Shown: one piece after another, positions 38,245-42,131 of the stretch
Layout: every line of letters begins with the position of its first letter
How positions within the stretch are numbered: position 1 is the first letter of the stretch
Source of the DNA: Candidatus Propionivibrio aalborgensis
Lineage (GTDB): Bacteria > Pseudomonadota > Gammaproteobacteria > Burkholderiales > Rhodocyclaceae
Direction: 5' to 3'
NCBI RefSeq assembly: GCF_900089945.1
Contig: NZ_FLQY01000029.1
Span: 1 to 42,131 of the forward strand
DNA: 42,131 nucleotides
The notes under the pieces: model-generated
The model's input: only the letters and a program-made list of their open reading frames with translations
Told to the model about the DNA's origin: nothing
Database searches by the model: none
Translations under genes and position numbers: made by a program

Positions 38245-38982
38245 TTAGTGCCAGACTCCCTGGGCGATCAGTTGCCGTGTCGCCGCTTCAGCCCAACCCC
38301 TGTTGGCTGCCGGGCTGGCTGGGCTGGGATGCAGCACTTTCCCGATGCTTACGTCCATACCTGTCAAAGCCTCGGTGGCGCGTTTCTCGGCAAAGCCGCC
38401 GACCCCGATCACCCACTGCGCTTCGAGCGCTGTCACGAGTTGCCTGAGATGTCGATCACAGGCCGCATTGAGCGGCTCCTTCTCGGCTGAAGGAAGTTTG
38501 TCCGGCGTAATGTTTCGGCCGCTGTCGAAAAAGGCCAAGGGACAATAGTTGGCAACAAAGTGGTTGGCGAAGAAAGCTTCTGCCTTGCCGAAGCGCTGTT
38601 GGAACAGTCCCCATAGACGTCGACCACTGACCTCGGAGCGCGTACAGGAAAATCCTTCAATCCGGCGTTTCGGGTTCTCCATTGCCGGTTTGTCAATTTG
38701 CGTTCTGATTCCCATCCAGTCGCGTACGGCAGCAATCTCGCCAAAGGGAACACCGCATTGAACCATGCCGAACGGTCCGGGATTCATACCGATGAAAACC
38801 ACTTTTTTGCGGCACGCGCCATAGCGGCGCAAATAGAGCTCGTGTGCCTCCCAAGCGTAAGCCAGCGGATTATAGATATGTGAAACTGGTAGAGCAAAGG
38901 TAAGTTTTTCAACCCTGGCCGACAGCTCACGAGCGGCGGCGATCAGCAGCTCGGCGCTTGAGGCGCTTGCCTCAGACGCCAA
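38245..38982 (-). CDS. SMUG1-type uracil-DNA glycosylase
   Basis: This 245-residue protein matches single-strand-selective monofunctional uracil-DNA glycosylase, family 3 of the UDG superfamily, best known from animals but present in some bacteria. It removes uracil and 5-hydroxymethyluracil from DNA. Motif 1 is GMNPGPFGM (65-73) and motif 2 is HPSPASPAANRGW (from 218). YNPLAYAWEAHELYLRRYG, FSCTRSEVSGRRLWG and FVANYCPLAFF are all SMUG1-typical. The start is TTG 38982, six bases after AAGGAG and overlapping the ampG stop by 11 bases; no ATG is near. It is last in the met-linked chain. Confidence 0.88.
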   Translation of the reverse strand: MASEASASSAELLIAAARELSARVEKLTFALPVSHIYNPLAYAWEAHELYLRRYGACRKKVVFIGMNPGPFGMVQCGVPFGEIAAVRDWMGIRTQIDKPAMENPKRRIEGFSCTRSEVSGRRLWGLFQQRFGKAEAFFANHFVANYCPLAFFDSGRNITPDKLPSAEKEPLNAACDRHLRQLVTALEAQWVIGVGGFAEKRATEALTGMDVSIGKVLHPSPASPAANRGWAEAATRQLIAQGVWH

Positions 38983-40246
38983 CTTGCGCTCCTTTGACCG
39001 GCACTATCTTCCACGGGGCCACCCGAGGAAGCAGCAGCATGCCGGGAATCGCCAGCGCAGTGCACAGCAGGAAGAAGCTGTACCAGCCGAGGCTTTCCAC
39101 GAGCCAACCCGCCGAAGCGTTGAAAAAGGTGCGCGGCACGGCAGCAAGGCTGGTGAACAACGCATATTGGGTTGCGGTATAGGCGGGGTGTGTTGAACGG
39201 GCTATAAAGGCGACGAAAGCCACAGTGCCCAGGCCAACGCCAAGCGCCTCGAAGCCAATGACGGTTGCGAGCGCCAGGCGTTGGTCAACGCCAATTTCCG
39301 TTTGTGGTCCGAGCCAGGCCAGCCAGGCAAAACCAAGAATCGATAGCAGTTGCACAACACCGAACAGCCACAGCGCGCGATTGATGCCCAGACGCACCAT
39401 CCACAGGCCGCCGAGAAGGCCGCCAAAGACCGCCGGCCATAGCCCGGCATGTTTGGCGATCAGGCCGATATCCGTTTTTGTGAAGCCCATGTCGAGGTAG
39501 AAGGGCGTCGCCAGTGCGGTGCACAGCGAATCGCCAAGTTTGTAGAGAAAAATGAAGGCAAGCACTAACAAGGCACCATGCAGACCAGAGCGACCCACAA
39601 ATTCGTGGAAGGGCTCGACAACGGCTTCACGCAGGGTCTTTGGCCTGGCATAGGCGTTGGTCGGTTCCTGGACCAGCAGGATCATGACCATTCCGGGCAG
39701 CATGAAGGCGGCGGTGATCCAGAATACCTGTGACCACGGCAACAGGTCGGCGAGAATCAATGACAAGGAACCGGGCACCAGCCCGGCGACACGGTAGGCA
39801 TTCACATGTACGGCATTGCCCAATCCCAGTTCGTTCTCCGTCAGCAGTTCGCGACGGTAGGCGTCCAGGGCGATGTCCTGGGTGGCGGAGAAAAGTGCGA
39901 GAAAGGTGGTAAGCCAGAGAACCGGGACGATGTCTGTGCTTGGCGACAGCCCGCCGAGCAGGCCAATGGTGAGCAGCAGGCCGATCTGCATGATCAGCGA
40001 CCAGCTGCGCCGCCGACCAAGGACGGGCAGGGCATAGCGATCCAGGAAAGGCGACCAGAGAAACTTCCAGGTATAGGGGAACTGGATCAGCGCGAAAATA
40101 CCGATGGTTTTGAGATTGACGCCCTCGCTACGCAACCAGGCCGGTAAGAGGTTCAGTAGCAGATAGAGCGGCAGACCGGAGCTGAACCCGGTGAAGACGC
40201 AGATCAGCATCTTGCGGGTCAGCAGCGCACTCAGCCAGGCTGGCAT
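38972..40246 (-). CDS. ampG: AmpG-like muropeptide permease (MFS)
   Basis: This 424-residue MFS transporter has about 12-14 helices and resembles AmpG, which imports N-acetylglucosamine-anhydromuropeptides for peptidoglycan recycling. Family marks are FTGFSSGLPLYLL at the start, FPYTWKFLWSPFLDRYALP, LGRRRSWSLIMQ and SATQDIALDAYRRELL. The start is ATG 40246, sharing its first base with the metW stop (TGATG). It follows metW directly, so it may be under the same SAM-responsive control. No ampD or ampC is seen. Confidence 0.85.
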   Translation of the reverse strand: MPAWLSALLTRKMLICVFTGFSSGLPLYLLLNLLPAWLRSEGVNLKTIGIFALIQFPYTWKFLWSPFLDRYALPVLGRRRSWSLIMQIGLLLTIGLLGGLSPSTDIVPVLWLTTFLALFSATQDIALDAYRRELLTENELGLGNAVHVNAYRVAGLVPGSLSLILADLLPWSQVFWITAAFMLPGMVMILLVQEPTNAYARPKTLREAVVEPFHEFVGRSGLHGALLVLAFIFLYKLGDSLCTALATPFYLDMGFTKTDIGLIAKHAGLWPAVFGGLLGGLWMVRLGINRALWLFGVVQLLSILGFAWLAWLGPQTEIGVDQRLALATVIGFEALGVGLGTVAFVAFIARSTHPAYTATQYALFTSLAAVPRTFFNASAGWLVESLGWYSFFLLCTALAIPGMLLLPRVAPWKIVPVKGAQVGV

Positions 40247-40866
40247 CAAGCCTTTCGACCCAGGCGATAGAAGGCCAGACTGCCGTTCAGATTCGGCTCG
40301 TCAGTCACCGGCTGTCCGGCATCGTCGAAAGCCAGCCGTTCGCGGATCTCGATGCCGAGTTTGTCGCATAGTGCGTCGAAGTCGGCAATTGTGAAGAAGC
40401 GCACGTTGGGTGTCTCGTACCATTCGAACGGCAGGTTCTCTGAAACGGGCATATGGCCTTGTGCAATCGCCTCCCGGTTGGCGCGATAGGCAAAGTTGGG
40501 AAAACTCACGACGGCTTCTTCAGCGACGCGCAGCATTTCGCCGAGAATTCGCTCGGTAGCGTGCATTGCCTGGAGCGCTTGGGAGATGATGGCGTGATTG
40601 AACGACCGGTTCTCGAAGCCGGAAAGGCCGCCTTCAATGTCGATCTGGATCACGTCGACGCCGTTGCGGATGCAGCCGAGCACGCTTTCGTGACTGATTT
40701 CGACGCCGTAACCGACGACGCCTTTGCTTTCGCGAAGATAGCGCAGCAACTTTCCGTCACCACAACCCAGGTCAAGTACGCGCTCTCCGGGCGGAATCCA
40801 GTTGGCGATGACGGCAAAATCGAAGCGCTCGCGCTCGATGGCCGTCAGCGGGTTTCCATTGCTCAT
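40246..40866 (-). CDS. metW: Methionine biosynthesis protein MetW
   Basis: This 206-residue protein has a class I methyltransferase-like fold: motif I is [15 protein letters not shown] and the next strand is [20 protein letters not shown]. MetW is required together with MetX for homoserine acylation in several proteobacteria and is thought to activate MetX rather than methylate. [20 protein letters not shown] and [16 protein letters not shown] match the family. The ATG overlaps the metX stop by four bases. Confidence 0.95.
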
Positions 40867-41990
40867 ACTGATATGTTCTCCAGGTAGGCGCGCAATACGG
40901 CGTGATAATAGGCGTCATCCAGCAGAAAGGAATCGTGCCCCGCGTCGCTATCGATTTCGGCGTAGGCAACGTGCCGCCTGTTGTGCAGAAGGGCAAAGAC
41001 AATCTCGCGCGAACGCGCGGGAGAAAAACGCCAGTCCGTTGAGAAACTGGCGACAAAGAACTTGGCTTTGGCCCGCGCCAGCGCAGCGGCCAGGTCGCCA
41101 TCGTAGGCGTAGGCGGGATCGAAGTAATCGAGGGCCTTGGTGGTGTTCAGATACGTGTTGGCGTCGAAGAAGCTGGCAAACTTGTCGCCTTGATAGCGCA
41201 GGTAGGACTCGACTTCAAAATCGACGTCAAAGCTGAACTTGTGCTCGCCATGGCGCAACTGACGGCCGAATTTTTCGCCCATCTGGCTATCCGAGAGATA
41301 GGTGATGTGGGCAACCATGCGCGCCAGCCGCAGGCCATGGACCGGCACGACGCCGTGTTCGGCGTAATGGCCGCCATGAAAGTCGGGATCGGAAAGAATA
41401 GCCTGACGAGCGACCTCGTTGAAAGCAATGTTTTGCGCCGACAGCTTGGGCGCGGAAGCAATCACCATGGCATGCCGTATGCGATCGGGGTACTGCAAGG
41501 CCCACTCGAGTGCCTGCATGCCGCCGAGGCTACCGCCGATGACTGCGGCCCAGGTATCTATGCCCAGATGGTCGGCCAGACGCGCGTGCGCCGCTACCCA
41601 GTCCTCGACCGTCACCATCGGAAAATCCGCCCCATAGCGTTTGCCGGTAATCGGGTTGACCGACAAGGGCCCTGTCGAACCGTAGCAGCCGCCGAGGTTG
41701 TTGACCCCGACGACAAAGAACTTGTCGGTATCGAGAGGCTTGCCGGGCCCAACCAGGTTATCCCACCAGCCAACGTTCGTGGGGTCGCTGGCGTCAACAC
41801 CGGCAACATGATGACCGCCGGAAAGGGCGTGGCATACCAGCACGGCATTGGAACGAGCGGTATTCATCGTCCCGTAGGTTTCAAATACCAACTCGAAGCC
41901 TGGAAGCAGTGCACCGCTCTTGAGTGCAATCGGCTCATTGAAATGGGCCCGTTGCGGCGCAACGATCCCGACAGAATTTTGTTGTGACAT
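40863..41990 (-). CDS. metX: Homoserine O-acyltransferase MetX
   Basis: This 375-residue alpha/beta-hydrolase commits homoserine to methionine by O-acylation. Its catalytic triad is S154 (GGSLGGMQA), D319 (STDWRFSP) and H352 (SDAGHDSF). [13 protein letters not shown] forms the oxyanion side and [12 protein letters not shown] binds the substrate. Acetyl-CoA versus succinyl-CoA cannot be settled by eye; many betaproteobacterial MetX use succinyl-CoA. The start is ATG 41990 with no strong Shine-Dalgarno. A SAM-II riboswitch and terminator lie directly upstream. Confidence 0.96.
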
Positions 41991-42007
41991 CGTGAACTTA
42001 TCGGAAG

Positions 42008-42041
42008 AAAAAACCCAGTCGGCCTGACAAAGCGGACTGGG
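42008..42041 (-). terminator. Intrinsic terminator in the metX leader
   Basis: On the minus strand, CCCAGTC (42035-42041), a 14-base loop and GACTGGG (42014-42020) form a perfect 7-bp stem followed by six U residues (42008-42013), ending 17 bases before the metX ATG. An alternative hairpin competes: AAAGCGGGAC (42045-42054) can pair with GTCCGCTTT (42029-42037) with one bulged G. That pairing would take three bases of the terminator stem plus its loop, so it acts as a candidate antiterminator. Confidence 0.9.
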
Positions 42042-42043
42042 CT

Positions 42044-42103
42044 GGTCCCGCTTTAGCCGTATTTATTAAGCGCCCGCAAGCTGATGATTCAAATCGGCGC
42101 TGG
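42044..42103 (-). promoter_or_regulatory. SAM-II riboswitch aptamer upstream of metX
   Basis: The minus strand reads AGCGCC, GATTTGAA, a short loop, GCTTGC, GGCGCT, TTAATAAATA and CGGCTAAAGCGGG, the order and content of the SAM-II (metA) aptamer. P1 is AGCGCC (42096-42101) with GGCGCT (42069-42074). The pseudoknot can be drawn between GCTT (42078-42081) and AAGC (42050-42053). SAM-II binds S-adenosylmethionine and turns methionine genes off. It is best known in alphaproteobacteria and mostly described as acting on translation; here a terminator follows. The promoter is probably beyond the right edge. Confidence 0.88.
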
Positions 42104-42131
42104 TTCGGAAACTTACCGGCAGTCCTTGGAA

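Follow-up and report, generated by a model that had tools for sequence, protein, structure and literature searches.

A predicted SAM-II riboswitch with a terminator and a competing antiterminator upstream of metX-metW in Candidatus Propionivibrio aalborgensis

The window, which is the whole 42,131-nucleotide stretch of DNA that was analysed, carries on its minus strand metX (40863..41990), the predicted regulated gene, which was identified with the NCBIfam MetX models (top match MetX_succinyl, 660.5 bits), and metW (40246..40866; TIGR02081, 244.3 bits), which overlaps it. Among named proteins, the closest MetX (93% identity) belongs to a Propionivibrio MAG. Homoserine O-succinyltransferase is the best NCBIfam model for the protein, with 660.5 bits against 563.1 bits for the acetyltransferase. 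A predicted SAM-II leader lies upstream at the end of the contig (C29), with the metX start codon 58 nt past the aptamer; all leader features described below are on the minus strand. A 245 amino acid reading frame elsewhere on this strand (38245-38982), beside an AmpG-type transporter gene, gave no NCBIfam match, and a sub-threshold Rfam match to SECIS_4 inside metX (41948-41966, plus strand; 21.6 bits against 38) is probably a short GC-rich hairpin found by chance.

The contig ends 29 nt past the aptamer, and sequence further upstream is supplied by contig C30 of the same genome. Positions 40701-42131 of the window overlap C30:1-1431 over 1431 bases, 1420 of them identical, and the leader is identical in both. 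All 11 differences fall within 40971-41127, and an overlap with differences between two contigs suggests either a strain mixture or an assembly overlap. A candidate -10 element (TAAGTT, 42110..42115) was recognised by eye; its -35-like partner, TTGACT, is outside the window and was taken from contig C30, where the pair stands directly before P1. TTGAC(T/A) and GTA(A/C)CTT occur at the equivalent place in all eight related metX leaders printed. This position agrees with the remark in the text of Corbino 2005 (PMC1273637) that SAM-II RNAs usually have a near-consensus promoter a few nucleotides upstream of P1. A consensus scan of the overlapping contig returned no promoter.

The aptamer (P1, L1 and the pseudoknot P2) spans 42049..42102. 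A sequence-only reading of this DNA had placed a SAM-II-type aptamer in the metX leader, and this identification holds: RF00521 (SAM_alpha) matches 42031-42110 with 33.6 bits, the features of the class are present and the downstream gene is metX by NCBIfam. The same reading had proposed a search with the Rfam covariance model, which gave a SAM_alpha match with an E value of 3e-6 in a 232-base search, but with a score under the 36-bit gathering threshold. The match surfaced through a genome search and the E-value mode, and the whole window searched at the Rfam gathering score gave no match to any family. The gathering score is a database inclusion rule and not a property of the RNA, and the window aptamer falls below it. 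Our own betaproteobacterial model, R1, rests on 32 aptamers drawn from the family and the order (alignment A2, 32 of 33 sequences, with L032 left out) and scores the window aptamer at 76.3 bits, a value that is high by construction because this aptamer is among the 32 source sequences. What is informative for R1 is control DNA and its matches at other loci, not the window score; in a control set of 800 kb, made up of other DNA from 20 of these genomes, its best score was 13.5 bits.

Pairing in the aptamer was followed in alignment A1, which holds 29 of 31 chosen metX leaders (L049 and L068 were left out and some ends trimmed). The 31 were selected for CCCAGTC in the terminator 5′ arm, with L014 and L118 also admitted. 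P1 is formed by AGCGCC (42096..42101) and GGCGCU (42069..42074); it is 99.4% paired across the 29 leaders, with one pair changed on both sides. P2 is formed by GCUUGC (42076..42081) and GCUAAAGC (42050..42057), the latter strand being common to the pseudoknot and the putative antiterminator. It too is 99.4% paired and is nearly invariant, so its support comes from form and not from covariation. P1 and P2 are in the SAM-II arrangement, and the conserved SAM-II core (GAUUUG, GCUUGC and GCUAAAG) is present. Genes of methionine/SAM metabolism lie downstream, metX-metW here and metH after a second copy in the genome. As several of the aligned metX leaders exceed the Rfam cut-off (L033, 45.7; L047, 41.7; L056, 40.2; L074, 38.4 bits), the window leader can be filed as SAM-II by homology. 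The sequence comparisons indicate that the element is most likely a SAM-II riboswitch and thus a predicted SAM sensor.

An intrinsic terminator follows the aptamer and precedes the metX start codon. It reads GCCCAGUC-C-GCUUUGUCAGGC-C-GACUGGGU, has a folding energy of -17.5 kcal/mol and is followed by a U6 tract read directly in the sequence (42008..42013), in agreement with the terminator with U6 that had been drawn from the sequence. Folding and the 29-leader alignment place its 5′ arm, GCCCAGUC, at 42035..42042 and its 3′ arm, GACUGGGU, at 42013..42020. Eight terminator pairs are kept in 100% of the 29 metX leaders, two of them with two-sided changes; the conservation of the 5′ arm is partly a matter of choice, given the selection for CCCAGTC. 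Terminators of -6 kcal/mol or lower follow 123 of the 131 family leaders, and terminators of -10 kcal/mol or lower follow 57 of 66 order-wide leaders; our terminator finder overlooks some that are plain by eye, e.g. in L045. Starting from 135 family loci and the window, we arrived at the 131 leaders by removing three in which the aptamer pattern was absent (L093, L126 and L129) and two that duplicate the leader of the window (L002 and L003). The consensus scan of the overlapping contig, with a loop limit of 8, did not list the window terminator.

The sequence-only reading had further drawn a 9-bp antiterminator hairpin, AAAGCGG(g)AC:GUCCGCUUU, with one bulged G. This hairpin is real as a fold (-8.3 kcal/mol alone) and its GCG:CGC core is conserved, but its AAA:UUU pairs are formed in 15-17 of the 29 metX leaders and it is part of a larger predicted pairing. 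A further helix, not drawn in that reading, joins the aptamer CGGC (42056-42059, before UAAAG) to GCCG (42020..42023) at the start of the terminator 3′ arm, and this second partner is paired in 99.1% of the cells of the alignment. With the CGGC:GCCG helix added, the antiterminator region has an energy of -12.8 kcal/mol as drawn by us and -15.4 kcal/mol as the MFE structure. Folding and alignment place its 5′ strand, CGGCUAAAGCGGGAC, at 42045..42059 (G42047 bulged) and its 3′ strand, GUCCGCUUU, at 42029..42037, within the terminator 5′ arm and loop. In the alignment the GCG:CGC pairs are formed in 25-29 of the 29 leaders and the next G:C pair in 22. Thus of the arm conservation that the reading had looked for, GCG:CGC is kept, as is CGGC:GCCG, while AAA:UUU is not. 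The candidate switch conserved among the metX leaders pairs CGGC-UAAA-GCGG with CCGC-loop-GCCG and so occupies all of the pseudoknot 3′ strand. The antiterminator excludes both of its competitors, GCUAAAGC being common with P2, and GUC and G42020 with the terminator stem.

The terminator stem itself has a conserved irregularity. Just inside the stem there is a mismatch in 29 of 29 metX leaders (C-C in 25, C-U in 4), and the loop adjoining it differs in length and sequence among the leaders. In the window the mismatched bases are C42034, which pairs with G42049 in the antiterminator (29/29 leaders), and the opposite C42021 (U in 4/29), which pairs with G42058; each of the two finds an aptamer G as its partner in all 29 leaders, the U as a G-U pair. 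Were there no further constraint on the terminator, nothing would call for the mismatch to persist, and these two bases, unlike the arm, were not selected for. The leaders are related to one another, however, and do not amount to 29 independent events. The conserved mismatch is the best single argument, drawn from the alignment, for the putative antiterminator. No two-sided change was found in the antiterminator pairs of the 29 metX leaders, so the compensatory changes that the first reading had proposed to look for did not appear; their absence would be natural with one strand held fixed by SAM binding, and covariation therefore cannot prove the antiterminator. The pseudoknot strand matches the window terminator better than dinucleotide shuffles do (z = -2.3), which makes chance an unlikely source of the match in this single leader, and it is the comparative evidence that carries the case for the predicted pairing.

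At equilibrium, with the aptamer unconstrained, the terminator occupies about 0.97 of the full-length leader, and without any energy for SAM or the pseudoknot the OFF and ON states have energies of -28.0 and -23.7. In stepwise folding the antiterminator dominates up to six bases of the 3′ arm (0.93) and the terminator from the seventh. Since the terminator wins at equilibrium in either state, control of the switch would have to be kinetic. At low SAM, the free CGGCUAAAGCGGGAC would pair with the terminator 5′ arm, the loop and the first bases of the 3′ arm once these have been copied, and RNA polymerase would clear the U tract before the terminator displaces the antiterminator. With SAM bound, GCUAAAGC would be held in the pseudoknot and the antiterminator would not form; the terminator could then do so, and transcription would halt before metX. 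The OFF logic first suggested, in which SAM leads to the terminator, stands as a model in which one aptamer strand is common to pseudoknot and antiterminator. Sequence and comparison support the arrangement of aptamer, terminator and a predicted competing antiterminator into which the P2 3′ strand enters in full, and we consider it likely that this SAM-II riboswitch acts by terminating transcription and so turns metX-metW OFF.

Complements of the pseudoknot strand were also counted in the terminators of other SAM-II leaders and in control terminators from the same genomes (305 found, reduced to 77 by a length and energy filter and then compared as 73 or 78 clusters). CGCT occurs in SAM-II terminators of 31 of 57 clusters against 12 of 73 controls, and GCTT in 21 of 57 against 5 of 73. 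Order-wide, the corresponding values are 11/32 against 1/78 for TAGC, 6/32 against 0/78 for TTTAGC and 4/32 against 0/78 for TTTGGC. These enrichment tests are partly post hoc: CGCT and GCTT were taken from the window, the other three motifs were picked after reading named metX leaders, and the latter were recounted on 69 order-wide loci, some of which are the same as earlier loci (e.g. L264, L266 and L281). Order-wide enrichment was also seen for AAGC, a motif that is no complement (10/32 against 8/78, p 0.0096), whereas in the family set it is not enriched (7/109 against 7/77).

Pairing energies follow the same trend. When pairing is anchored on AAAGC, the leader's own terminator is better than controls (p 2.6e-8) and reaches -5 kcal/mol or lower in 38 of 57 clusters. 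For GCUAAAGCG, SAM-II terminators pair better than controls (p 4e-4; order-wide, p 0.0016), and -6 kcal/mol is reached in 31 of the 54 clusters listed (fraction 0.57); a strong match to the pseudoknot strand is missing in a good part of the clusters. Of the 49 named metX leaders that R1 matches, 39 entered the GCUAAAGCG pairing and a scrambled-probe test, and the scrambled-probe control was not significant (rank 49/401). A leader's own terminator differed weakly from other SAM-II terminators in two tests (p 0.037 and p 0.035), and for this reason no leader-specific covariation is claimed. The trend is exemplified by leaders with a full nine-base partner of GCUAAAGCG, namely CGCUUUAGC (L208), CGUUUUAGC (L310 and L285), CGUUUUGGC (L274) and CGCUUUGGC (L280), which differ only at positions where a wobble preserves the pair. 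These comparisons indicate that the rule of complementarity to the pseudoknot strand extends past the metX leader group.

The element is widespread in the order. R1 had matches in 117 of the 150 genomes drawn from it and in 77 of the 92 genera, while Rfam SAM_alpha, apparently on the same draw of 150 genomes, which includes the genome of the window and some R1 source genomes, gave 25 above the cut-off and 66 at E ≤ 0.001. Of 395 genomes in the family, 194 match the Rfam model at E ≤ 0.001 and 72 do so above the cut-off. A score below the Rfam cut-off is thus usual in the betaproteobacterial group. These counts indicate that at its cut-off the public model misses most betaproteobacterial copies (25 against 117 of the 150 genomes), and annotation therefore probably understates how far metX and metH are under SAM control in this group. 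The R1 element is upstream of metX at 49 of 80 named metX loci, one of which has a partial match (L219, 23.3 bits).

Several variants were seen among these loci. Elsewhere in the genome of the window, metH is preceded by another SAM-II aptamer, which likewise has a terminator (L001:1501-1582; contig C101, 37417-37498). Approximately 49 of the 131 family leaders precede metH-like frames, approximately 57 precede metX and 8 precede sulfhydrylase-like frames, the NCBIfam check covering MetH of L001 and MetX of the window. GAUUGC replaces GCUUGC in the pseudoknot strand of several metH copies. Second SAM-II-like aptamers lacking a terminator are found 100-200 nt past the first in L010, L018, L045, L069, L080, L092 and L131, and others occur in genomes G430, G433, G447, G476, G514, G517 and G531; they precede short orphan frames, not met genes (by eye, a RadC-like frame in L092), and matched no Rfam family at E 0.1. 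In L222, L220, L230, L235, L240, L246 and L247, all upstream of metX, an insert of approximately 25-35 nt that could form a hairpin lies between P1 and the pseudoknot 3′ strand.

The favoured reading, transcription termination controlled by SAM, has to be weighed against a SAM-II aptamer followed by a terminator that does not respond to SAM, in which case the complementarity would follow from the high GC content and relatedness of the sequences, with SAM acting otherwise, e.g. on RNA stability. The preference for the terminator at equilibrium in both states, the lack of two-sided changes in the antiterminator and the weak or failed controls (own terminator against others, scrambled probe) are all compatible with this explanation, and the text of PMC9373788 describes a terminator past the Sinorhizobium meliloti metA SAM-II that is predicted to be unaffected by SAM. 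It is nevertheless unlikely, since the conserved mismatch is explained by the alternative pairing and the complements are enriched over real control terminators; in the same source the S. meliloti metZ leader RNA increases under high SAM.

The best-studied SAM-II RNA, the crystallised one from metX, has been described as a translational switch whose pseudoknot conceals the ribosome-binding site (PMC10907184), and a distant Shine-Dalgarno sequence within the S. meliloti metA switch is reported still to matter (PMC9373788). We regard such a translational switch as very improbable here, as 58 nt and a strong U6 terminator lie between the aptamer and the metX start. At that distance the pseudoknot cannot cover the ribosome site, and the direct-occlusion model was rejected, the ribosome-binding site being neither in P2 nor beside it. 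Slighter still is the chance that the leader belongs to a separate betaproteobacterial class, the 'metXZ element', which merely resembles SAM-II. The sub-cut-off Rfam score would fit such a class, as would the account of Leyn 2014 (PMC4239095), whose text reports no SAM_alpha in betaproteobacteria and calls the element new. Yet P1, P2, GAUUUG and GCUAAAG are all there, the aligned metX leaders L033, L047, L056 and L074 exceed the Rfam cut-off, and a legend in Corbino 2005 (PMC1273637) names Bordetella bronchiseptica among the organisms with SAM-II.

Termination control by a SAM-II riboswitch, as preferred here, has precedents. The sequence-only reading set it against a class usually described as translational and a betaproteobacterial context, but that it would be surprising for either is not supported: according to the text of Corbino 2005 (PMC1273637) many SAM-II RNAs bear putative terminators, and Barrick and Breaker 2007 (PMC2258182) describe SAM-II as the only aptamer that appears to be found most often with regulatory terminators in alpha- and betaproteobacteria. 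Judging from the text of these sources, the terminator-coupled SAM-II of betaproteobacteria is already known and is not unusual. With the members of the class (RF00521, SAM_alpha; the 'metA element' of Corbino 2005) the window leader shares P1, P2, the conserved L1, the GCUAAAG core, a methionine gene downstream and, as in many members, a terminator past P2; it differs from the RF00521 members in scoring under the Rfam cut-off and in that its SAM ligand is predicted from sequence.

The closest counterpart is the betaproteobacterial metX/metZ RNA element described in the text of Leyn 2014 (PMC4239095), with which the leader shares the taxon, metXW or metZ as downstream genes, a pseudoknot, a terminator and a speculated antiterminator. 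Leyn 2014 proposes other antiterminator strands (regions 3 and 4) and keeps the element separate from SAM_alpha. Based on gene, taxa and architecture, not on alignment, the metXZ element is very probably the same RNA as the window leader. A wider, joint proposal, which we hold to be somewhat more probable than its opposite, is that across betaproteobacteria the SAM-II switch would work by mimicry, the 5′ half of the terminator encoding a second partner of the whole GCUAAAGCG, and that the 2014 metXZ element would be this riboswitch. As parts of this proposal, the partner would take the form CGCUUUAGC, CGUUUUAGC or CGUUUUGGC or be split (e.g. CCGC...GCCG), it would change only so as to keep pairing with the aptamer strand frozen by SAM, and the metXZ element would have escaped recognition as SAM-II owing to too low a score with the Rfam model. 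In the open-access text passages searched, no paper was found that spells out this SAM-II antiterminator or equates metXZ with SAM-II.

Two further systems invite comparison. Termination is also predicted for the S. meliloti metZ SAM-II, the leader RNA of which (~100 nt) rises in high-SAM medium according to the text of Scheuer 2022 (PMC9373788); that system differs in belonging to an alphaproteobacterium and in preceding metZ. The tandem SAM-II/SAM-V and SAM-II/SAM-II arrangements reviewed in PMC9481103, where 44 double SAM-II are given as known, share a terminator past SAM-II, which is described for the SAM-II/SAM-V tandems and for some double SAM-II, whereas the window has a single aptamer before metX. 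What is added to these systems is small and consists of a fuller putative antiterminator, the mismatch in the terminator and the proposed order-wide mimicry rule; together they offer a concrete candidate antiterminator for a class in which catalogues of expression platforms mostly go by whether a terminator is present.
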